Shown in pieces: positions 7,378 to 30,549 of a stretch of 64,000 bases of DNA. The notes under the pieces were generated by a model. It searched no databases and was not told the origin of the DNA. It saw only the letters and a list, made by a program, of their open reading frames with translations. The stretch covers positions 1,054,001 through 1,118,000 of the forward strand of contig NZ_JAEPPI010000001.1 of assembly GCF_017641085.1 (NCBI RefSeq). Reading direction: 5' to 3'. Origin of the DNA: Gracilimonas sp. GTDB lineage: Bacteria > Bacteroidota > Rhodothermia > Balneolales > Balneolaceae. Position 1 is the first letter of the stretch, and each line of letters opens with the position of its first letter. A program made the position numbers and the translations under genes.

Positions 7378-7830
7378 ATGGGTCAACAACAATTACTTCT
7401 TGTAATTCTCGTAACAATCATCGTAGGTATTGCGACGGTTGTGGCTATTAACACATTCGGATCAGCTGCTGATTCAGCTAACCTTGACGCAGTTCGTCAG
7501 GATATTGCTACATTCGCTTCTTCAGCACAGGGCTACTTTATGAAGCCTGAAATGCTTGGCGGCGGTGGCGGTGACTGGGAAGGTATTACCTTCAATACAG
7601 TTGCTTTCCCGGCTGACGAAATCGCTAACGGCGGTTTAACAGCAGTAAACGCTAACGGTGTATATACTTTCTCTGCACCTGGTGCTACTGACACTACCTT
7701 TACCCTTACTGCTTATCCTGCTAGCCGTATTGACGGACCGGTTACCTCTTCAGTTAGTTCTGCAACTGGTAACGGACCTCTTACTGCGGATATCGGACCA
7801 GGTGGTATTTCTTGGATTGAAAATGACTAA
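7378..7830 (+). CDS. Pilin-like protein with minimal leader (candidate filament subunit)
   Basis: A 150-residue protein beginning MGQQQ, then an unbroken hydrophobic helix to about residue 24 that ends AINTFGSA. A globular beta-rich domain with a five-glycine stretch (about 62-66) and a secreted-protein composition (G, A, T, S, N, few charges) follows. The plan is that of type IV pilins/pseudopilins, but the leader is only MG, there is no FTLIE motif and no Glu at +5. It has a strong ribosome-binding site and its own terminator, consistent with high expression. A paralogue with the same LLLVILVT helix follows. Function is inferred; likely partners are the assembly genes at 20919-30549. Confidence 0.6.
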   Translation: MGQQQLLLVILVTIIVGIATVVAINTFGSAADSANLDAVRQDIATFASSAQGYFMKPEMLGGGGGDWEGITFNTVAFPADEIANGGLTAVNANGVYTFSAPGATDTTFTLTAYPASRIDGPVTSSVSSATGNGPLTADIGPGGISWIEND

Positions 7831-7864
7831 TATAGATTAGAATCTATATCATTAGTTTACAATG

Positions 7865-7894
7865 AATGGCTCCTGAAAGGGAGCCATTTTTTTT
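7865..7894 (+). terminator. Terminator between the two pilin-like genes
   Basis: AATGGCTCC (7865-7873) pairs with GGAGCCATT (7880-7888) around a six-base loop and is followed by eight T. It lies between the two pilin-like genes and would make the upstream one the more abundant transcript. Confidence 0.88.
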
Positions 7895-7924: not shown

Positions 7925-8296
7925 ATGGGAAAAAGAGAACTACTGCTGGTCATATTAGTTACTGTACTTGTTGCCATTACAGTTTCAGTAGCTTTTAACA
8001 CGTTTTCCAAGGGAGAGCTAAATCCTAACAGGTCAGCTACGTTGCAGGGTATGTATGAAGCAATAGGTAGATCTGTAGCCTATTATGAGCGCCCAAGAAT
8101 TCAGGGAGGCGGTCAGAATTCTTTTGAGGATGTTACTTTGAAAGATCTTTATCTGCAAAGTGAAAATGGTCATGGTACTTATACCATTTCAGACAGAACC
8201 TATAATTCATTTCGTTTAGTGGGAAGACCAACAAATACTGATATTGTATTAGAGGTCATGGTTTATGCGGATTCCACCGTATGGATTCAAAGATAA
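7925..8296 (+). CDS. Second pilin-like protein (candidate minor subunit)
   Basis: A 123-residue protein beginning MGKRE, then a hydrophobic helix (about 6-25) sharing LLLVILVT and the NTF exit with the upstream protein. A short polar domain with a GGGQNSFEDV turn and a beta-rich end (VWIQR) follows. It has a perfect-looking GGAGGT site seven bases before the ATG. If cleaved after Gly2 it carries Glu at +3, whereas its neighbour has Gln there. Read-through past the intervening terminator would give lower expression, as for a minor pilin. Role is inferred; it is not recognisable as any named pilin. Confidence 0.55.
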   Translation: MGKRELLLVILVTVLVAITVSVAFNTFSKGELNPNRSATLQGMYEAIGRSVAYYERPRIQGGGQNSFEDVTLKDLYLQSENGHGTYTISDRTYNSFRLVGRPTNTDIVLEVMVYADSTVWIQR

Positions 8297-17783: not shown

Positions 17784-19238
17784 TTAATTGACACTTTTTC
17801 TTCTGGTACCTGATATACCTGAGTACGTTGTTGTTTGTCCAGAAGGGGTGGTAACACTAATTTTAATAGTTAGATCTGCAGGATCTGCGGACTCCTCATC
17901 TGTATCGCGAATGGAAAACTGGAATTCAGTTGCGCCTGGACCAGGATATAGATAATTACCCAGTGTAAAATCGGTATCCCCGGTAACTTCAATATCATCG
18001 CCACCATCAATCGATATCTCTGTTCCCGCTGCCATTGGATTGCCATTAAGGTCGGTAACAGTGTAGGTAAAACTCGCACCTCCATTCGGTTGAAGGTCAA
18101 AAGTTGTTGGGTTTGCTGATATGGATGCACTCGAAGTTGAAAATACAATAATTACATTCTTTTCAATTTCCTGGTTGTTTCCATTTATGGTTCTGGCTGT
18201 TACTGTAGCATAACCATCACGGCCCCCACTTCCAGCTACATTGTCAGTTGGGCGAGGATCACCGGAAATAAGGTTCACAGTAACCTCTCCATCATCATTC
18301 GTATTTCCTGCACCTGAACCCTGAATAATGCCACCTGTGGTTGTGAAATAAACGGCCGTTCCTGGTTTAACAGGGTTGCCAAATTGGTCACCGAGAATTA
18401 CCGTTAAAGGATTTCGGTTTCCGTTTATCGACCAACCCTCGAAATTGTAATTATCTGCAGCAATACTAAAGTGATCTAAGTCGGGAAATCCCCCATGGAT
18501 GGTAATAGCTACAGGTCTTGACCGGATTGTAAGCCCTACGTCTTCACGGACAATTTCTGCTTGTATCTGTACTACTCCAGCTATATTTCCACTATACAAA
18601 TTTGATGTAACGGTTCCGTTAGCATTCGTTGTTGCGGTTACTGGAGTTATCCCTTCTCCTCCATTAGGGCCGGAGATAATTGAAAACGTTACTTCTTCAG
18701 AATTATTCAAGTCAAGGTTTCTTCCAGATGAATCCTGAACCTGAAAAGTAAAGCTGGTATTAACGATACCGCCTGTTTCTGCAATGTTAATTGTTTCTTC
18801 AGTAATCCCATCAAGAATTATGGATGCAGCACCAGCAGAAGGTCCGGCTACACCTCCGTCATCATCTCCATCATCGCCTCCGTTGTCAGAGGTTTCAGGA
18901 TCTAATTGAAAATTGAAATTCGTAATGTTATCACCAGAAGCTACCTGTACACTACGGCTGTCTGATACATAATCGGTTGCAGAAGCAGCTAAGGTTATAT
19001 CAGTAAGTTCTGAAACGTCAATATTGCTGAATGAGTACTGACCGACTGAATCTGTTCGTGTAAAGTCACTGAATTCCTGAGGACTTGTAATTTGTACGGT
19101 AGCGTTTGCAATCGCATTACCATTCACAGAGTTGGTGACAGCACCCTGGATTACGACAGACTCGTCATCATTAGAAGTACAACCAACAAAAAACTGAATT
19201 AATAAAGCCGTGCAAAGAAGTAGAGATATTTTACGCAT
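17784..19238 (-). CDS. Ig-like (Big) repeat lipoprotein
   Basis: A 484-residue lipoprotein (lipobox near FVGC, residue 20). First comes a carboxypeptidase-regulatory-like domain (about 30-115). A glycine/aspartate-rich linker (about 117-130, GGDDGDDDGG) follows. Then come two or three bacterial Ig-like (invasin/intimin Big_1-type) domains, where VTVNLISGD and VTSNLYSG mark the repeated strand ends. Such proteins are surface adhesins or structural lipoproteins. It lies beside an MFS gene and about 1.7 kb from the pilus-like operon, on the other strand. A link to the filament is speculative. Confidence 0.75.
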   Translation of the reverse strand: MRKISLLLCTALLIQFFVGCTSNDDESVVIQGAVTNSVNGNAIANATVQITSPQEFSDFTRTDSVGQYSFSNIDVSELTDITLAASATDYVSDSRSVQVASGDNITNFNFQLDPETSDNGGDDGDDDGGVAGPSAGAASIILDGITEETINIAETGGIVNTSFTFQVQDSSGRNLDLNNSEEVTFSIISGPNGGEGITPVTATTNANGTVTSNLYSGNIAGVVQIQAEIVREDVGLTIRSRPVAITIHGGFPDLDHFSIAADNYNFEGWSINGNRNPLTVILGDQFGNPVKPGTAVYFTTTGGIIQGSGAGNTNDDGEVTVNLISGDPRPTDNVAGSGGRDGYATVTARTINGNNQEIEKNVIIVFSTSSASISANPTTFDLQPNGGASFTYTVTDLNGNPMAAGTEISIDGGDDIEVTGDTDFTLGNYLYPGPGATEFQFSIRDTDEESADPADLTIKISVTTPSGQTTTYSGISGTRRKSVN

Positions 19239-20918: not shown

Positions 20919-22256
20919 ATGGCACAATTCAGGCTAAAAGCGATTTCGCAAAAAGGTAAAGTAGTTCAAACTGAATTTGAAGCTGACAATAAGAAAGAAG
21001 CTCAACTTAAAGTAGACAGGCTTTCGAAGACCAATGGATTGAAGATCCAGTCGGTGGACGAGAAAGTGATGTTTATGTATAAAGTGCAGCGACCGGGAAA
21101 GCCGGTGGTTACAGGTGAGCAGGAAGCATACAGTAAAGAAGAATTAGAAAAAGCGCTCGTTAAGCTTGGCTATAAAGTTAAAAGCATCAATAAAAAGCTT
21201 TTCGACTTCAAAGGCGGAGTGCCTCAGCAGGAAGTTGTGACCTTCATCCGGCTATCTTCTGATTTGCTGCAGCAGCAACTTCCTTATGATGAGATCCTGA
21301 ACCTGCTGTACGAAGATACCCAGAACAAGCGGATGAAAGAGGTAATTAAAACCATCCAGAAAGACCTGAAGGATGGTAAAGAAGGTTCTGAGGTGTACGG
21401 AAAGCATGAAGATGTATTCGGTAAGTTTGCGGCTTATATGTTAAGTGTTGCCTCAACCTCAGGTAATATGGCCCTTGTTTTTGAAAGTACCGCAAAATTT
21501 ATGGAGAGGGACGCTGAGTTTAAAAAGAATATGCGCCGTGCCCTTATGATGCCTGCGGTTACCGTATTGGCTGTAATTGGGGTTGTTCTGTTTTATGTGG
21601 GATATATTTTCCCTGCAACGGCCGAAATGTTCCTGGAAATGGATATCGCTCTTCCTCCAATGACGGCCGCTACCCTCGAAATGAGTTACTGGCTGCGGGA
21701 TAACTGGGTATTGATTGTACTTTCATTCGTTATACCTATTGCTGGTTTTATCTATTTTGTTCGAACACCAAAGGGGCAGCTCTTTAAAGATAAATATATT
21801 ATACATTTACCCGTTTTGGGTGATTTATTGCATAAAACAAGTATTGAGATTTTTGCCCGGGTGTTTTACACTCTCTATAGTGGTTCAGGACAAAACATCG
21901 AAGTTATTAAGGTGGCTTCTGAAGCATGCAGGAACAAATACATGGAAAAGCAGATTAAAGAAGTCGCGATACGAAAAATGCTGAAGGATGGTGCCGGACT
22001 TATCGAGTCGATGGAGGCTACCGGTGTTTTTACAAATACAGCTTTAAGTAGATTCAGGCTGGGTGCTGAGTCGGGTGCTTTAAGGGAAAATGCCAAACAG
22101 CTGGCCGAGTACTACGAAATTCAAACCACCTATAAGATGCAGTCGGTAATTGATATGATTAATCTGTTTATCAATATGTTTATCATGGTTGCGCTGATTG
22201 CTATTACTGTTGTTTCTTCTGAATCAGCCGTAATTCAGCCGAATTCAGGTGTCTAA
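20919..22256 (+). CDS. GspF/PilC-like inner-membrane platform protein
   Basis: A 445-residue polytopic protein of the type II secretion/type IV pilus platform family, which anchors the assembly ATPase. Two copies of the short N-terminal T2SSF-type segment (about residues 1-48 and 52-95) precede the first cytoplasmic helical domain. Membrane spans lie near 208-235, 261-283 and 412-433. The second cytoplasmic domain (~290-405) keeps FARVFYTLYSGSG and RLGAESGAL motifs. It is the first gene of a seven-gene co-directional operon. Confidence 0.9.
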   Translation: MAQFRLKAISQKGKVVQTEFEADNKKEAQLKVDRLSKTNGLKIQSVDEKVMFMYKVQRPGKPVVTGEQEAYSKEELEKALVKLGYKVKSINKKLFDFKGGVPQQEVVTFIRLSSDLLQQQLPYDEILNLLYEDTQNKRMKEVIKTIQKDLKDGKEGSEVYGKHEDVFGKFAAYMLSVASTSGNMALVFESTAKFMERDAEFKKNMRRALMMPAVTVLAVIGVVLFYVGYIFPATAEMFLEMDIALPPMTAATLEMSYWLRDNWVLIVLSFVIPIAGFIYFVRTPKGQLFKDKYIIHLPVLGDLLHKTSIEIFARVFYTLYSGSGQNIEVIKVASEACRNKYMEKQIKEVAIRKMLKDGAGLIESMEATGVFTNTALSRFRLGAESGALRENAKQLAEYYEIQTTYKMQSVIDMINLFINMFIMVALIAITVVSSESAVIQPNSGV

Positions 22257-22265
22257 GAGTTTTAA

Positions 22266-24041
22266 ATGGGAAAAATAAACATACGCAGACATATTGGGGA
22301 TATCCTTGTAAACAAGGGTATTATCACTAAAGAGCAGTTGCAAAAAGGCTTGTCGATTCTCTCAGAAGAACCAAAAGAGAGCAACCGTAGGCTGGGGCAA
22401 ATTCTTTCACAGGACCTGGGATTGAACCGGCACCTGATCATGAAGGAAATTGCCAACATCTATGCCTTCCGCGAGGTTTTGAAAGATGTAGATGAAATTC
22501 CGGGAGAGGTTCTCGATCATATCAAAGAAAACCTGGAAGATCTCCCCAAAGAGATTGTAGATGAACTGGTACACCATAAGGCTCTTCCGTATCAGAAAAC
22601 CAAGAATTCCATTGTAATTGCTGCGGCAGATCCATCTGATCCTAACATTCAAAGTGTACTCAATAAGATTAATTTCAAGCAGACGGAGTTAGTCTATTGT
22701 AAATACGAGTCGATTGAAGACATCCTGTCTAAAGTTTACGAGCAAAAGAATGAATTCCTGGACCTGCTCGAAGAAATCGATTATGAAGAGCCTGATTTAG
22801 ATAAGAATCAGGAAGAAATTGACGAAGAAGAGATTGATGCCGAGATCAATCAGAGTATGCTTAATTCTTTGGTGGAAGGGATGTTGGTAGAATCAGTTCG
22901 CCAGGGAGTTAGTGATATGCACATCGTGCCAAGTTCCCCAACCACCACGGATATCCGGTTTCGTGTGGATGGTAAATTACAGCTTTGGTATCAACAGAAG
23001 AATGTGAAGCCGGAAGCTATTTCAGCCGTTATTAAAGATAAAACCCGTAATGTTGATCGTTTTGAGCGGGATGCCTCACAGGATGGTTTTATTCAGCGGC
23101 AAATTGATGGCGTTGGGATTCGGTACCGGGTTTCTATTATGCCCATTGTTGGGAAGCAGTACGATCGGAAGTTTGAGTCAATTGTAATTCGGGTTTTGGA
23201 TGACCGAAATGTAATTCGTGACCTGGATAAACTGGGTTTGCAGAAGCAGGCGAAAGAAAATTTCATAAAATCAATCCAAAAACCCTCCGGTATCGTAATT
23301 ATTACGGGTCCCACGGGAAGTGGTAAATCAACTACGTTGGTAGCCGCCTTGTACTATGTAATTGATCCGACAAAAAATGTGCTTACCGTAGAGGAACCTG
23401 TGGAGTACATTATTGAAGGAGCTAGGCAGCTAAAGATCAGTAATCATATGACCTTTGATCAGTCGATCAGGGGTATTCTCCGGCATGACCCTGATATTGT
23501 ACTTGTAGGGGAGATGAGGGATTTAAAGACCGCCGAAATTGCTATTAAACTGGCTAATACCGGTCACTTAACCTTTTCAACCCTTCACACCAATGATGCG
23601 CCCAGTGCAATTTCCCGTTTGTTTAAGATGGGGGTTGAGCCATTTTTGATTGCAAATGCCGTAAACCTGGTAGTTGCCCAGCGTTTGATCAGGCGGTTGT
23701 GCAGTAATTGCAAGGAACAGTTTACACCACATCCCGAGACGGCCAAGGGAATTGGTTTTACCGATAAAGAAATTGAAGAAACAACATTCTACAAAGCGGT
23801 TGGCTGCGAAAAATGTAATGAAACAGGCTTTAAAGGCCGTGCGGGTATTCACGAGGCCCTTTATTTCTCAAAAGAGATAAAGCAAATGATTCTGGATGCC
23901 GGTGGCGATATTGATGAAGGAGCTATCAAAGAGATGGCAATGTCGCAAGGTATGCTTACATTGCGCGGGTCTGGCCGGGAGCGTGTGAAAGAAGGTGTTT
24001 CTACGATCGAAGAAATTGTGGCTGCAACTATTGAAGATTAA
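22266..24041 (+). CDS. GspE/PilB-like assembly ATPase
   Basis: A 591-residue hexameric-type secretion ATPase. The N-terminal T2SSE_N domain (~1-150) is followed by an acidic linker (~165-195) and the core ATPase. The core has Walker A GPTGSGKST (~347-355), the Asp-box TVEEPVEY, Walker B DPDIVLVGEMRD (~407-418) and a HTNDA motif. The zinc site has the CxxC pairs CSNC (~478) and CEKC (~514), as in GspE/PilB. It drives extension of the filament or pseudopilus from the cytoplasmic side. It lies nine bases after the platform gene. Confidence 0.93.
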   Translation: MGKINIRRHIGDILVNKGIITKEQLQKGLSILSEEPKESNRRLGQILSQDLGLNRHLIMKEIANIYAFREVLKDVDEIPGEVLDHIKENLEDLPKEIVDELVHHKALPYQKTKNSIVIAAADPSDPNIQSVLNKINFKQTELVYCKYESIEDILSKVYEQKNEFLDLLEEIDYEEPDLDKNQEEIDEEEIDAEINQSMLNSLVEGMLVESVRQGVSDMHIVPSSPTTTDIRFRVDGKLQLWYQQKNVKPEAISAVIKDKTRNVDRFERDASQDGFIQRQIDGVGIRYRVSIMPIVGKQYDRKFESIVIRVLDDRNVIRDLDKLGLQKQAKENFIKSIQKPSGIVIITGPTGSGKSTTLVAALYYVIDPTKNVLTVEEPVEYIIEGARQLKISNHMTFDQSIRGILRHDPDIVLVGEMRDLKTAEIAIKLANTGHLTFSTLHTNDAPSAISRLFKMGVEPFLIANAVNLVVAQRLIRRLCSNCKEQFTPHPETAKGIGFTDKEIEETTFYKAVGCEKCNETGFKGRAGIHEALYFSKEIKQMILDAGGDIDEGAIKEMAMSQGMLTLRGSGRERVKEGVSTIEEIVAATIED

Positions 24042-24120
24042 TAAGCGGAAAACTTGAAATTAAATATTAACTTAATGCATATTGCTGTTATGCCAGTAGT
24101 AACCATTACAGGGGTTTAGT

Positions 24121-24627
24121 ATGAGTACTGAGATGTCAAATTCCGGCGATGAATTAATGACCGATTACATAAAGAAGTTTTTGAAAGAACCTCCGTTGCT
24201 TCTGAAAAACTTCCATTATGAGGACGTTCTGGAGTTCCTTCAGTTAGGGAAGGAAGAAAGGTTTCTGTCTGATGAAATTATTTTGAATGAGTCGGAATAT
24301 GTTAATTCAGCCTATTTAGTAGCTGAAGGAAAAGTATGTATTTGGAAGGATAACATACAGTTAGCTACGTTGGGAGAAGGTAATTTTTTAGGGGAAACTT
24401 TCTTATTCAGTAAAAATAATAGAATGGCTAAGGTTACAGCTGAGGGCGATTGTGTGGTACTCAGATACGAGCGATATGAAGCCCTTAATTTTTTCAGGAA
24501 AAAACCCGAAAAGCTGTTTAATATCTTTACAAAAAATATCATCGAAATACAGCAGCGAAAAATAAGTAACATGAACGTTCAATTACTCAACTTAAAGAAG
24601 AGGTTATTGAACGATACCAATTGGTAA
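24121..24627 (+). CDS. Cyclic-nucleotide-binding-fold protein without DNA-binding domain
   Basis: A 168-residue protein whose middle (~45-150) has the cNMP-binding jelly-roll: an ILNESEYVNSAYLVAEGKVCIW stretch with the family's G-V-L spacing, then LGEGNFLGE and a phosphate-cassette-like region. The canonical R-A-A/T pair of CRP/PKA is not obvious (LGETFLFSKNNRMA), so ligand binding is uncertain. There is no helix-turn-helix, so it is not a transcription factor. It sits 79 bases after the extension ATPase and 142 before the PilT-like ATPase. A role in switching or tuning the motors is inferred. Confidence 0.7.
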   Translation: MSTEMSNSGDELMTDYIKKFLKEPPLLLKNFHYEDVLEFLQLGKEERFLSDEIILNESEYVNSAYLVAEGKVCIWKDNIQLATLGEGNFLGETFLFSKNNRMAKVTAEGDCVVLRYERYEALNFFRKKPEKLFNIFTKNIIEIQQRKISNMNVQLLNLKKRLLNDTNW

Positions 24628-24769
24628 TACTGTAAACATCATTGTACGGCAAATTGATAAATTGCAAGCACATAAGCTTGGATTATTAGTTTTTTTTAAT
24701 TTTTTTCGTAACAATAGGCCTTTACAGGTATCCTGTTATTTGTCATCAACAAATTGATTTGGCTTTATT

Positions 24770-26017
24770 ATGGAGGCGGCAACCAAGAAATCCGAAAAGC
24801 TATCAGAACTGGTTCAGCCGGTTATTGATCAATTACCCCGAACTTCCAGGGGAATAGATCGCCACGTCCAGTTGGGAAATGTGGTTGATAACCTGGGGGA
24901 CGATCACCGGGAGAGTCTTTCGGATATATTAGACGGCTACCTGAAAAGGATGCTGAAGAATGATGCTTCTGATATTGATTTAGGTGGTCCTGGCTGTGAT
25001 GGCAGGGTTTGGTACCGAATTTATGGTGACAAAAAACCTGCAAAAGTACCCGTAAGCCTATCTTTGGATGAAACGAATGTACTATTGCATAACGCTATTC
25101 TTCCATCCCAGAGAAAAAAGCTAATAGAAGACAAGAATCTTGACTTTTCTTATTCAATAGAGCTTGGAAACGGCAAACAACAGCGTTTTCGGGCCGATAT
25201 GTATTTTGACCTGGAGCACCTTGCGCTCAACATGCGTAAGATTGACAATACCATCCGCCCATTTAAGAACCTGAACGTACATACAGAGGTAGCCAAAGCT
25301 CTCAGTTTAAAGTACTACAAGTACGGTTTAACGCTTATTACTGGTATTACGGGTTCCGGTAAGTCATCTACACTGGATACCATTATAGACGCCAACAATC
25401 GGACGGTTGATTCTCATATTGTAATTATAGCCTCTCCGGTTGAATTAATACACACACCCATCAAATCGGTGGTTCGACACAGGGAAGTAGGCCGGGATGT
25501 TGAATCTTTTAAAGAAGGTGCAGTGCAGGCTCTTCGTCAGGATCCGGATATTATTGTGATTGGTGAGCTTCGAGATCCCGAAACTATTATGACAGCCCTG
25601 GAAATTACTGATTCCGGTCACAAAACCTTCGGAACTCTTCACACATCATCAGCCATGGAGAGTATTGAGCGTATTTTGGGTGAGGTTCCAACAGAAGAGC
25701 AGAACAGGGTTCGGGTGAGGTTGGCTGATGTTTTGACGTGCGTTGTCAGTCAAAAACTGGTCCCCAGCCTGGATGGAAAACGAGTATTAGCTAAAGAAGT
25801 ATTGATGGTAAACACTTCTGTCAGGGCAGCAATTCGCAATAATAATATAGGGGAGATCTATCAGATGTTGATGGAAGGCGGAGAAAAAGGGATGAATACG
25901 ATGGAACAAGATCTTAAGAGGCTGTACACCGATGGTATTATTTCTAAAGAAAATGCACTAAATCACGCCAACAACAAAACTAAAATGGTTCAACTGCTAA
26001 GTGAAGTTAATTACTAA
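24770..26017 (+). CDS. PilT-like retraction ATPase
   Basis: A 415-residue ATPase resembling PilT/PilU, which powers pilus retraction. The core has Walker A GITGSGKSST (~191-200), Walker B DPDIIVIGELRD (~255-266), a TLHT/SA segment and a VRVRLADVLTCVVSQKL helix. The Asp-box reads IIASPVEL (~219) instead of the usual TIEDPIEF, losing two acidic residues. An N-terminal extension of about 50 residues is longer than PilT's. It is followed nine bases later by the PilMN fusion. Confidence 0.88.
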   Translation: MEAATKKSEKLSELVQPVIDQLPRTSRGIDRHVQLGNVVDNLGDDHRESLSDILDGYLKRMLKNDASDIDLGGPGCDGRVWYRIYGDKKPAKVPVSLSLDETNVLLHNAILPSQRKKLIEDKNLDFSYSIELGNGKQQRFRADMYFDLEHLALNMRKIDNTIRPFKNLNVHTEVAKALSLKYYKYGLTLITGITGSGKSSTLDTIIDANNRTVDSHIVIIASPVELIHTPIKSVVRHREVGRDVESFKEGAVQALRQDPDIIVIGELRDPETIMTALEITDSGHKTFGTLHTSSAMESIERILGEVPTEEQNRVRVRLADVLTCVVSQKLVPSLDGKRVLAKEVLMVNTSVRAAIRNNNIGEIYQMLMEGGEKGMNTMEQDLKRLYTDGIISKENALNHANNKTKMVQLLSEVNY

Positions 26018-26025
26018 GGCTGAAT

Positions 26026-27765
26026 ATGTTATCTAATAAGACATATACCGGAATTGTTGTTGACGAAGAGTTTCTGAAAGTTGCCCGTATTAAAATTACC
26101 GGTAAACAGGTTTCGTTAGTCAGTTTGGACAAAGTGCGCCTGGTGGAGAGCCTTAAGGGCAAAGCTAAAGCTGCCAAAGAAGAAGAAACAGTTGATGTTT
26201 TTGACAGCATTGATGACAGCCTTGATGATGAAGATGTAATTTTTGGTCTGGAAGAAGAGGAAGAAGATCAAACCGAGGAGTTGGATTTAGATGCTTTTGA
26301 GGATGATCTCGATGACCTTGATTTTGATAATCTCGACGATTTAGAGGGTTCCGATGAGATCGTTGATACCGATATGGTCGACGAAACCGAAGCGGCGGCA
26401 TCTAATGAACTGCTATTATATAACCTTTTAAGCTCTACAGATTCCAAGAGGGTGGATGTTGGTCTAAGTATCCCTGCCGGACAAACTATTTTCCAGATCC
26501 TTAAAGATGTTGACTTTTCCGAGACCAAAAAGAAAGACCTTCAGATTATCGTAGATGATCGTCTCGAAGCCCTTCATGGGGTATCCAAAGCCGAAGATTA
26601 TTACTCATATTCGGTACGTGATGACGGAGCCCTGCTCCTTACCTCTATTGATGATGAGCCGGATTTACTGAAACTGATGAACCGAACCCGTGACATGTAT
26701 CGCGGAAAATTGTTCATCAATGAGATCTTACCGGATGAAATTCTTCTATTGGGGCTGATCAGGGCAAATTATGAGCTTGAGATAAACAGTATTACCGGTG
26801 TGGTTCAGTTTGGTGAAAAGACCAGCAGAATCCTGTTTTTAAAAGGCTCTCAGCTATGGATTGTATCACCGATAATTACCGAAGGAATTAAGAATCCTAA
26901 ATTTCTGAATACAATATTCAGTAAAATCCTTTTCCAGCTCGATACCGGTGAGGTTCCGAACCTTGATCGGCTTATCATATGTAATAATTCGCTGGGAGAT
27001 GATGCAATCGAGTTCTTTGAGGAGCGTTTTCAGGATGTAAACGTTTCAGAGTTTGAATTTTCTGATGATTTCTTTGACGCCGAAGATATCAATCCTTCCT
27101 CCATTCCTGCTTTCACTACTGCAATTGGTGCTGCATGGTCGGCTTCCGGATTTCAAAAAGACAATTTCCCAAGCATTTCTTTCTTGCCTAGTTATGTAAT
27201 AGACAGGCAGAAGATTTTTAAGCTGCAATGGCATGGATTTTTACTATTGCTTTTGATTTTGCTTACGCCAATTGTATCAAACCACTTTTATACTCAGAAT
27301 GCGGTAGAAATAGATCGCCTGAGAAATGAAGTGAGCACATTAAATTCTCAAATACAATCGCTTGAGCCCACCGTTCAGCGTTATAATCAAATAAGTTCCG
27401 ACTTAGAACAAATTCAGGCTAAGCTTGTGCTATTGAGTGAGCTGAACCAGGGAACCTTACGCTGGAGCAAGAACCTCGATCGAATTAATAGTGGGGTAGA
27501 TGATGTAAACTCTGTCTGGCTCACTTCAGCTACCACTCTCCCAAATGGTGATATCGAATTAAGCGGATATGCTGTTTACAGAGAGCGAATAGCAGAGTTG
27601 GCGGATGTATTTGAAGATGCAACGCTTTTGAATGTTACCTCAGATCAAATCCGGGAACAGGATGTTTACAGCTTTACTTATGTTGTTTCAGAGTTTTTTG
27701 AGGATGAAAGCATTTACACCCCACAAAGTGTGCAGGGAATTGAAGAATTAATACAAGGGAACTAA
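26026..27765 (+). CDS. PilM-PilN fusion protein (GspL-like)
   Basis: A 579-residue protein. Residues ~1-50 and ~130-390 make an actin-like PilM/GspL-cytoplasmic domain (GIVVDEE, LLSSTD, VGLSIPAG, TSRILFLKG, AIGAAWSA). They are interrupted by a strongly acidic, Glu/Asp-rich insert (~53-125). A single membrane span (~398-421), a coiled coil (~425-475) and a PilN-like periplasmic ferredoxin-fold domain (~490-579, LPNGDIELSGYA) follow. In typical pili PilM and PilN are separate; here they are joined as in GspL of type II systems. The acidic insert is unusual. Confidence 0.82.
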   Translation: MLSNKTYTGIVVDEEFLKVARIKITGKQVSLVSLDKVRLVESLKGKAKAAKEEETVDVFDSIDDSLDDEDVIFGLEEEEEDQTEELDLDAFEDDLDDLDFDNLDDLEGSDEIVDTDMVDETEAAASNELLLYNLLSSTDSKRVDVGLSIPAGQTIFQILKDVDFSETKKKDLQIIVDDRLEALHGVSKAEDYYSYSVRDDGALLLTSIDDEPDLLKLMNRTRDMYRGKLFINEILPDEILLLGLIRANYELEINSITGVVQFGEKTSRILFLKGSQLWIVSPIITEGIKNPKFLNTIFSKILFQLDTGEVPNLDRLIICNNSLGDDAIEFFEERFQDVNVSEFEFSDDFFDAEDINPSSIPAFTTAIGAAWSASGFQKDNFPSISFLPSYVIDRQKIFKLQWHGFLLLLLILLTPIVSNHFYTQNAVEIDRLRNEVSTLNSQIQSLEPTVQRYNQISSDLEQIQAKLVLLSELNQGTLRWSKNLDRINSGVDDVNSVWLTSATTLPNGDIELSGYAVYRERIAELADVFEDATLLNVTSDQIREQDVYSFTYVVSEFFEDESIYTPQSVQGIEELIQGN

Positions 27766-27772
27766 TAGTCAA

Positions 27773-28642
27773 TTGTCATACGCGGTCCGAAATACCATCA
27801 TTCTGTTAGTAACACTTACGCTGTTTGTAGGTGCTGCTTTCTCTTATATCAAGTTTTTCCAAATGTCTGAATTGCAAGAGCTTCAGACTTCGGTAACGGA
27901 AAAGCAAAAGGATTTTAACAGCAAGAAGGCTACCAGTGACGCCTTTCCGGCTTTAAATCAAAGATACCAACAGGCGCTTTCTATCATTGAAAATGCAGAT
28001 AAATCCCTTTTTAAATCACCTAACCCAGATGATATTTACGATTATCTGAACTATATAAGTAATAGCAGTACATCGTCTAAAGTGTTTTTTGATTTTGTTT
28101 TCGTTGACTCCACAGCTCAGGATCAGTATGGAATTGTGAATGCTGAAATAAACGGATACGGCTCTTACACTAACTTCGTGAACTTTGTGAATAAGATTGA
28201 GAACAGCCAGCTGTTGAATAAAATCTCTGAGATTACACTCACACCGCCCAGCTCTAATCCTGAAGAGCTCAATGACATTACTTTTACTTTTATTTTAGAA
28301 AGCTATTACGAGCGCATCCCCATCCAGGATGGTTTGACACTGACCAGCCAGCTCACAATGGATGAACGCGTTTCAACATTTAACCCATTTTACCCACTTA
28401 TACAGGAAGTAATTCCTCCTAATGATGATAATCTCATTAATGTGGAACAAAGCAGATTAATAGGCCTTACTGCATCGCGAATATTTCTCGTAGATCAGGG
28501 AGGAAACATAAATTCACTTAGAAAAGGGGATGAAGTGTACCTTGGTGAATTAGAATCTATAGACCTTAAAAATAAATCCGCTACTTTTAATCTAAACAAA
28601 GGTGGCATCACGGAATTGGTTACCTTGGAGATAGAGCGATGA
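27773..28642 (+). CDS. PilO-PilP fusion protein
   Basis: A 289-residue protein that starts at TTG. An N-terminal membrane span (~8-28), a coiled coil (~30-75) and a PilO-like periplasmic domain (~80-190, ending TFTFILESYY) come first. A C-terminal ~70-residue domain follows (~218-289) with a LTASRIFLVDQGG...KGDEVYLGELESI pattern. That pattern matches the PilP/GspC homology-region domain that contacts the secretin. Joining PilO and PilP in one chain replaces the separate lipoprotein PilP. Its stop overlaps the secretin start by four bases (ATGA). Confidence 0.75.
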   Translation: MSYAVRNTIILLVTLTLFVGAAFSYIKFFQMSELQELQTSVTEKQKDFNSKKATSDAFPALNQRYQQALSIIENADKSLFKSPNPDDIYDYLNYISNSSTSSKVFFDFVFVDSTAQDQYGIVNAEINGYGSYTNFVNFVNKIENSQLLNKISEITLTPPSSNPEELNDITFTFILESYYERIPIQDGLTLTSQLTMDERVSTFNPFYPLIQEVIPPNDDNLINVEQSRLIGLTASRIFLVDQGGNINSLRKGDEVYLGELESIDLKNKSATFNLNKGGITELVTLEIER

Positions 28643-30549
28643 AACCCATGAAAGCAACATTCTACACAAAAGGTTTTTTGTCATTAGTCCTTTTCGGCTT
28701 GGTAAGTTTACTACAACCGCAGCTTGTACATGCTCAGGTAGTCGATCCTCTAAAAGAATACACCAATCCGGAAGAGATCGTAGCTTTCGACAAAAGCACG
28801 ACCTACAACGAGGCTATTGAGATAATTAATACCTTTGCCCAGGAATTTGAAAACAGGTTTATTGTTGACAATTCTGCTTACAGCGGAACCATTGGTGTGA
28901 CGTTGCCAGCCATGCACTGGAAAGATGCGCTTCAATACATCATGCGGTTTAATAACCTTGAGCTGGAAGAATACGAAGACTTTTATGAAATAAATGTTCC
29001 GGCACCTCCTACTACTGGAACTACAACTCAGGCTTCAGGTGGGGGTTCTAACGCATCTCAGGGCCAACCTCCAACAGCTACAACCCGAACGCAGGAAGTG
29101 CGTATTAATGCTACATTTTTTGAAGGGAATAAAAGAGCACTTCAGGAAATCGGGATAGACTGGTCCACACTGACAAGTGACGTACCTGCTAATTTGGGAG
29201 ATTTTGTAGGTGCTGATGGGAATCAAGGCATCCCATCTACCGATTTTAACGATCAGTTCGTATCCGTTAACTCCTACAACGCTGCCAGTGTTTCTCAGAA
29301 TGCCTTTAACGCCCTTGTTAATTTAGGCGAAGTCGGTCCCGGAATCAGTGTACAAGCGTTATTCAGTGCTTTTGAGGCTGATAACCTTGGTAAGGTTTTG
29401 GCTACTCCATCTATTAAAGTAGTGGATGGCGAAGAGGGAAATATCCAGGTAGGGCAGGATTTCTCTATTAAACAGCGTGATATAGCCGGTAACGTGACGG
29501 ATAACTTTATTAGTACAGGAACCATTCTTACCGTAACTCCTGAAATTATCAGTCAGGGCGACACCTCTTTTATCTATCTCTCGCTGGAAGTAGAACGTTC
29601 TACCGTTCTGCCCGATGTAGTTAGTACCATTGTAAACAAACAGGAAGCAACAACTTCAGCTATCCTGCTGAATGGCGAAGCAACCTATGTTGCCGGATTG
29701 TATCGAACGGAAGAATCTTCAGTGCGAAGGGGAGTTCCCATTCTCAAAGATTTACCGGGTTGGTTCTTTGGTCTCCGTTATTTATTTGGATATAACTCCA
29801 AAGACTATTCCGAGAATGAATTGATTATCATCGTGCAGGCTGAGTTGATTAAACCGGTTTCAGAACGAATTTCAGATCGCAAGCTTACTAAACGCGAAGT
29901 GCTGAACAATACCCGCGATGGTATGCGAACCGATTTAGACCGCGTGTTTACCACCGAAACGTTTGATATGCCCGTGGAGGAAGAAATAGCTGAGGCTCAG
30001 CAGGAAGAACAACCGGCCATGGACGATTCAACCCTTGCGGAAACGGACAAGGATAATACCCAGCCGGATACCATGACTGTTGAGGAACAACCGGTAGATG
30101 CCGAAGAAGAGGATGCACTTACGGATGAGCAACAGGAACTGGCTAAAGATTTAAGTATGCCTGTTGATAAGCCGGAATTAATGGTGGTTGTACCGAAGGC
30201 ATTCAATTTGGATGAATATCTGGAGTACCAACAGAATGAGCAGCAAGTAGAGACCATGCAGGAAGAGACCTCCAATTTAAAATACTTTGTGATTGGCGGT
30301 TCATTTCTTGTTCCGGGTAATGCACAGAACTTTAAATCCACTCTTGAGCAAGAAGGCTATAACACACAAATCCTGTTTAACCCCGAAACCCGATTTAACT
30401 ACGTAGCTTACGAAGGGTTTGCCGATTTCAATACGGCTGTTGAACGAACGCTTGAAATCAGGGACAGCTTTAACAGTGAAGCGTGGTTGTTTACTCTGAG
30501 AAACGGCAACAACCCGAATGCTGAGCGGGTTAACGGCAGCAGCGAATAA
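28639..30549 (+). CDS. Secretin (GspD/PilQ-like) with C-terminal SPOR domain
   Basis: A 636-residue outer-membrane secretin. A signal peptide cleaves after VHA (residue 32) and an STN/N0 domain (~50-112) follows. A GT/S-rich linker (~115-145) precedes the secretin core (~150-415), which carries GEATYVAGLYR, VPILKDLPG and ENELIIIVQAELI. A long acidic linker (~440-540) leads to a C-terminal SPOR domain (~547-628), with YFVIGGSF and an A-YEGFADF segment. SPOR domains bind denuded glycan strands of peptidoglycan, so this secretin could be tethered to the wall. No pilotin gene is adjacent. Confidence 0.88.
   Translation: MKPMKATFYTKGFLSLVLFGLVSLLQPQLVHAQVVDPLKEYTNPEEIVAFDKSTTYNEAIEIINTFAQEFENRFIVDNSAYSGTIGVTLPAMHWKDALQYIMRFNNLELEEYEDFYEINVPAPPTTGTTTQASGGGSNASQGQPPTATTRTQEVRINATFFEGNKRALQEIGIDWSTLTSDVPANLGDFVGADGNQGIPSTDFNDQFVSVNSYNAASVSQNAFNALVNLGEVGPGISVQALFSAFEADNLGKVLATPSIKVVDGEEGNIQVGQDFSIKQRDIAGNVTDNFISTGTILTVTPEIISQGDTSFIYLSLEVERSTVLPDVVSTIVNKQEATTSAILLNGEATYVAGLYRTEESSVRRGVPILKDLPGWFFGLRYLFGYNSKDYSENELIIIVQAELIKPVSERISDRKLTKREVLNNTRDGMRTDLDRVFTTETFDMPVEEEIAEAQQEEQPAMDDSTLAETDKDNTQPDTMTVEEQPVDAEEEDALTDEQQELAKDLSMPVDKPELMVVVPKAFNLDEYLEYQQNEQQVETMQEETSNLKYFVIGGSFLVPGNAQNFKSTLEQEGYNTQILFNPETRFNYVAYEGFADFNTAVERTLEIRDSFNSEAWLFTLRNGNNPNAERVNGSSE

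Follow-up and report, generated by a model that had tools for sequence, protein, structure and literature searches.

Gene content of the locus

The window analysed here, a 64,000-nucleotide stretch of the genome of a Gracilimonas sp., carries a seven-gene operon for a pilus-like machine and, 12 kb upstream of it, two small genes whose products are, by predicted fold, type IV pilins that start without a leader peptide. The source genome measures 3.49 Mb and is 98% complete, and the nearest named relatives of the locus are found in Balneola and Gracilimonas (Balneolaceae; class Rhodothermia in GTDB).

The seven open reading frames (ORFs) of the operon all lie on the forward strand, with gaps of 9, 79, 142, 8 and 7 bp and one overlap of 4 bp. 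Their coordinates and their Pfam and NCBIfam matches bear out the identities proposed in an earlier note, which had described seven co-directional genes. The first (20919–22256, +) encodes the PilC/GspF platform protein (Pfam T2SSF, 2e-27, over the cut-off). The second (22266–24041, +) encodes the extension ATPase PilB with an MshEN domain (2.9e-7); it matches Pfam T2SSE at 1.8e-99 and its best NCBIfam model, TIGR02538, at 1e-132, yet below the equivalog cut-off, and has a Walker A motif at residue 348, a Walker B motif at 413 and C-x2-C pairs at 479 and 514. It is followed by a protein with a cyclic nucleotide monophosphate (cNMP)-binding fold and no DNA-binding domain (24121–24627, +; PF00027, cNMP_binding, 8.9e-13), possibly providing nucleotide control of the machine. 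The fourth gene (24770–26017, +) encodes a PilT-family retraction ATPase (TIGR01420, 2.5e-92, 309.7 bits against a cut-off of 319.1; Pfam T2SSE, 1.9e-32) with Walker A, Walker B and AIRN motifs at 192, 263 and 354, respectively, and the seventh (28639–30549, +) encodes the PilQ secretin (PF00263, Secretin, 7.6e-28, over the cut-off). The C-terminal extension of PilQ (30226–30549) is a candidate SPOR (peptidoglycan-binding) domain, under the Pfam cut-off with an E-value of 0.056 (0.047 in locus L022).

The fifth and sixth genes encode the alignment proteins as two fusions. The fifth (26026–27765, +) is a GspL-like PilM–PilN fusion with one transmembrane (TM) helix near residue 397. Taken alone, it has no family match over the Pfam or NCBIfam cut-offs; its profile matches Myxococcus PilN (3jc8) over residues 404–526 at 2.2e-10, and the phylum-wide profile reaches PilN at 4.2e-12, with PilM (2ych) as a weak second match (E 0.19). 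The PilN part is C-terminal to the PilM-like domain, and the PilN ‘NLLP’ motif reads ISFLP, directly ahead of the single TM helix. A PilM–PilN fusion, as the note had read it, is thus supported, most clearly for PilN. The sixth gene (27773–28642, +; TTG start) gives a Pfam PilO match of 1.8e-6. In its structure model a TM/coiled-coil segment is followed by a PilO-type domain (residues 81–181; Z 11.8 against PilO, 2rjz) and a C-terminal sandwich that matches both the homology region (HR) of GspC (residues 225–288; 3oss, Z 8.5, root-mean-square deviation 1.2) and PilP (residues 213–287; 2y4y, Z 8.3), in line with the proposed PilO–PilP fusion. The note had also listed a separate PilP as missing. 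Its domain is fused behind PilO, and PilP is therefore not missing.

In the interval that separates the pilin pair from the operon, a gene on the reverse strand (17784–19238, −) encodes a lipoprotein-like product carrying Ig domains of the invasin type (Big_1, Invasin_D3).

Two pilin genes in the window

The earlier note had found no pilin. Reading of the entire window brought up two short ORFs, starting MGQQQLLLVILVTIIVGIATVVAINTF and MGKRELLLVILV. The first (pilin 1; 7378–7830, +; 150 aa) is the probable major pilin and the second (pilin 2; 7925–8296, +; 123 aa) a probable minor pilin, which joins the pilin 1 family at an E-value of 2.2e-10, or 2.1e-41 with the profile. Neither has a match over the cut-offs of Pfam and NCBIfam. 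The AlphaFold2 model of pilin 1 (predicted local distance difference test score 85) consists of an N-terminal helix of 54 residues (2–55) followed by an antiparallel sheet. Once the Foldseek candidates for this model are realigned, the top 22 are type IV pilins or type II secretion system (T2SS) pseudopilins (Z 7.6–4.5), the next fold scoring 4.3. When a profile of 22 pilins of the family is compared with the PDB, six of its seven matches are type IV pilins (best E 3.6e-4). Judged by model and profile, the two window proteins are type IV pilins.

An intrinsic terminator, a hairpin plus a T run, lies between the two genes (7864–7889, +). Six relatives have a hairpin and a T run at the same site, but their sequence differs from the one here. 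The position of this terminator suggests that pilin 1 may be made at a higher dosage than pilin 2. A third paralogue, 57% identical to pilin 1, is encoded elsewhere in the genome (G000:C1:619011; L117:14012–14458), where it stands isolated among unrelated genes, with no further pilins and no peptidase in the approximately 20 kb around it. In two Balneola loci the pilin 2 gene looks decayed (L015:4678 and L021:4623) and pilin 1 is intact.

The pilins have no leader and no Glu5

By definition, type IV pilins carry a leader of 6–26 residues ending in Gly, and Glu5 is almost invariable; essentially all type IV filaments are also described as sharing a leader peptide and a dedicated prepilin peptidase (PMC4471445). 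We compared 119 distinct pilins of relatives, taken from the loci compared, with this definition. In all 119 the start codon immediately precedes the helix, and none has a class III signal peptide, that is, a leader of 6–26 aa ending in Gly−1. Residue 2 is Gly in 116 and Ala in three, 109 start with MGQQQ, and three minor pilins begin MANKE. A longer alternative start was considered and rejected, given the lack of upstream in-frame start codons: no in-frame ATG, GTG or TTG lies upstream in 115 of the 119, the frame being closed within five codons in 81. Upstream of pilin 1 there are three in-frame codons before a stop and upstream of pilin 2 there are 16, none of them a start codon. Among the conserved N-terminal residues, Gly is encoded by each of its four codons and the three Gln by each of the eight CAA/CAG triplets; the codons thus vary freely, and selection therefore acts on the protein.

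The structure and profile alignments both place residue 4 (Gln4) on mature residue 1 of canonical pilins, which leaves no more than three residues ahead of the canonical mature N-terminus. In this structural register position 5 falls on residue 8, which is hydrophobic in 119/119, so Glu5 is absent; positions 6–24 hold no charged residue in any of the 119 pilins.

Linkage to the machine across Bacteroidota

The order in most Balneolaceae loci is pilin1–pilin2–pilC–pilB–cNMP–pilT–PilMN–PilOP–pilQ, and in other Bacteroidota families it is pilin–pilin–pilC–pilB–pilT–PilMN–PilOP–pilQ. In most relatives the pilin genes thus immediately precede pilC; in the window and in Gracilimonas loci the pair lies apart from pilC, at roughly 10 kb or more. 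In several Bacteroidia loci the pilins are preceded by a conserved gene that, from its sequence, looks like aspS; it was set aside as not part of the system. The note had seen in the locus a hybrid of pilus and T2SS with an order that had no name. Gene-order comparison supersedes this view: the order PilC–PilB–PilT–PilMN–PilOP–PilQ, preceded by pilin genes, is conserved in Bacteroidota, and the arrangement comes closest to type IVa pili.

In a sample of 392 genomes across Bacteroidota, with PilB scored as present at E < 1e-100, the pilins and PilB occur together in 130 genomes, pilins without PilB in two, PilB without pilins in three and neither in 257. The machine with leaderless pilins is therefore present in about one in three genomes of the phylum sample.

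The slot between pilB and pilT differs between families. Balneolaceae have the cNMP-fold gene there, which was matched in none of the operons examined outside this family; in the same place, several relatives outside Balneolaceae carry three proteins with a hydrophobic helix a few residues from the start (L146:12933–15337, L149:2886–5319, L092:8119–11017 and L084:12535–14946), beginning for example MGLGQTMLTIMALILMG, MGSQTILDLIASSMVFG and MGRASIYMIIGFCSIFL. By order, size and N-terminus these are candidate leaderless minor pilins, putatively GspI/GspJ/GspK-like. In some Rhodothermales-type genomes (L084:8813–12298 and L100:3176–6877), PilB has an N-terminal extension of about 650–830 aa with no Pfam domain.

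Prepilin peptidase is absent from most of these genomes

The prepilin peptidase reported missing from the locus is missing genome-wide: the source genome has no Peptidase_A24 over the cut-off and no N_methyl match, and a same-genus peptidase used as query found nothing in it (best E 0.16, with two stops). In the phylum sample, 117 of the 132 pilin-bearing genomes lack Peptidase_A24, and the presence of the peptidase is statistically unrelated to that of the pilins; in a class sample, 121 of 134 are without it.

A genome of the same genus (G025) served as a positive control. It has a second locus with a peptidase, its own ATPase, a secretin and PilN- and PilO-like proteins. The prepilin of this second locus is canonical, its leader MMSLQKKIKKLQQEEDG (ending EEDG) being followed by FSLTELL, and is caught by N_methyl, with Peptidase_A24 alongside. 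The models therefore do see leader and peptidase in this lineage when they are present. Four further loci (L091, L094, L097 and L112) show a similar arrangement and, where found in the relatives examined, the peptidase is part of such a second locus, which is T2SS-like and has ordinary prepilins. Since the pilins studied here have no leader to remove, the absence of a peptidase is not a gap for another locus to fill. A family of Bacteroidota (f27; G214, G238, G255 and others) has Peptidase_A24 and lacks both the leaderless pilins and this PilB.

Comparison with known systems

With the type IVa pili of Pseudomonas and Myxococcus the machine shares extension and retraction ATPases, platform, secretin, N–O–P alignment modules, a putative PilM module and the pilin fold, but it differs from them in having no class III leader, no Glu5 and no prepilin peptidase, and in its fused M–N and O–P proteins. 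Because leader, Glu5 and peptidase are lacking, we class it as a leaderless variant rather than as an ordinary type IVa member. T2SSs have in common with it the GspL-like M–N fusion, the GspC-like HR domain, GspF and the secretin, whereas here PilT is present and leadered pseudopilins and GspO are absent (no N_methyl match and no Peptidase_A24 over the cut-off).

The Cytophaga hutchinsonii ‘T2SS’ (CHU_3191–3202), which Denise et al. separate from true T2SSs (PMC6668835), belongs to the same phylum and likewise has a secretin, a platform, an ATPase and PilM/N/O/P-like proteins. It carries its own Peptidase_A24 (PMC5553014) and ordinary prepilins, and so resembles the second locus of the relatives rather than this one; the Peptidase_A24 and N_methyl pseudopilin found in a Cytophaga-type cluster are lacking here and present in the second locus of G025. 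The MSHA pilus (MSH) also has loci without a prepilin peptidase gene (PMC6668835); MSH genomes, however, always carry the peptidase of another system, whereas most genomes here carry none. Lastly, the Akkermansia pilus-like locus Amuc_1098–1101 is from a different phylum; the PilO-type fold of Amuc_1100 (6kny) matches the O–P model (Z 9.1), and the M–N protein has a weak Amuc_1101-family match.

A probable type IVa-pilus-like machine with leaderless pilins

Taken together, the machine genes, the predicted pilin fold, the linkage, the missing leader and the missing peptidase make it very probable that the locus, together with the pilin pair upstream of it, specifies a type IVa-pilus-like machine whose pilins are leaderless. 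We also consider it likely, with somewhat less confidence, that this is a phylum-wide lineage of type IV pili whose subunits, both major and minor, are all made at mature length and enter the filament with no leader, peptidase, Glu5 or N-methylation. Type IV filament assembly would then have no intrinsic need for leader removal.

Each pilin would use its N-terminal helix to enter the inner membrane, with only about five residues (Met-Gly-Gln-Gln-Gln) staying cytoplasmic. Met-Gly and Met-Ala N-termini are classic substrates of methionine aminopeptidase, which probably strips Met1; the remaining chain would exceed a canonical mature pilin by about two residues. PilC and PilB would then draw the pilin into the filament with no prior leader cut, the polar Gln cap substituting for the pairing of Glu5 with N-methyl-Phe1. 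The PilM–PilN and PilO–PilP fusions would together make up the alignment complex leading to PilQ, the secretin through which the filament would exit, and PilT would retract the filament. The most likely role would be DNA uptake, adhesion or twitching; ComEC is encoded, which is compatible with DNA uptake and is no demonstration of it.

Several points weigh against this reading. Foldseek by itself gave nothing better than E 1 in the PDB for the pilin 1 model, and the fold match rests on realigning low-ranked candidates, with Z-scores below 8. The candidate minor pilins of the relatives have no Pfam match over the cut-off and no pilin match in the PDB. The nominal P of the co-occurrence of pilins and PilB (5e-98) overstates independence, as the sampled genomes share kinship, although the co-occurrence spans many families despite this.

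The MG start itself could also be read differently, as a minimal two-residue leader cut after Gly2 by a non-A24 peptidase, which would expose Gln1, perhaps as pyroglutamate. The near-constant Gly2 fits this explanation, as does the fact that canonical leaders end in Gly and are cut by PilD after Gly−1, but known bacterial leaders run to 6–26 residues (PMC4471445). The MANKE starts of three minor pilins offer no Gly, the structural register sets mature residue 1 at Gln4 and not Gln3, and no conserved peptidase gene is found in the operon in the loci compared. Gly or Ala at position 2 also suits methionine aminopeptidase. We regard a minimal leader as unlikely.

Slightly less probable still is that the apparatus secretes proteins by means of a short pseudopilus and is not a pilus. 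The M–N fusion is GspL-like, and the Cytophaga ‘T2SS’, a separate Bacteroidota system that branches together with type IVa pili, secretes proteins (PMC6668835, PMC5553014). That system, however, has its own Peptidase_A24 and corresponds to the second locus, the operon here includes a PilT-family ATPase, which is absent from T2SSs, and the terminator that follows pilin 1 hints at a subunit made at high dosage.

We give very little credence to a hybrid locus that draws its ordinary pilins and its peptidase from other loci of the genome. MSH loci do take their peptidase from other systems (PMC6668835), but the searches of the source genome recovered neither peptidase nor N_methyl pilin, there is a pilin family linked to the operon, and a gap in a 98% complete genome could hide one gene here, not in 117 genomes. 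A decayed duplicate of a canonical operon, which the note had allowed for, or a non-functional remnant is scarcely credible: pilin 2 decay is seen in the two Balneola relatives, but here the ORFs and ATPase motifs are intact, PilB is conserved at 88–99% within the genus and at about 50% across the phylum, and the locus is the sole copy, PilB and PilT being the only two T2SSE-type ATPases in the whole genome.

Searches of the open-access literature, subscription papers and preprints aside, turned up no leaderless or peptidase-free type IV pili. A lineage of a major bacterial phylum without leader and peptidase would break a rule thought to be nearly universal. Leaderless subunits perhaps explain why pilins had gone unfound in such bacteria, and MGQQQ plus a hydrophobic helix beside pilC provides a search signature for pilins missed by the Pfam and NCBIfam cut-offs. 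The system also offers a way to test if assembly depends on leader cleavage or is only gated by it.

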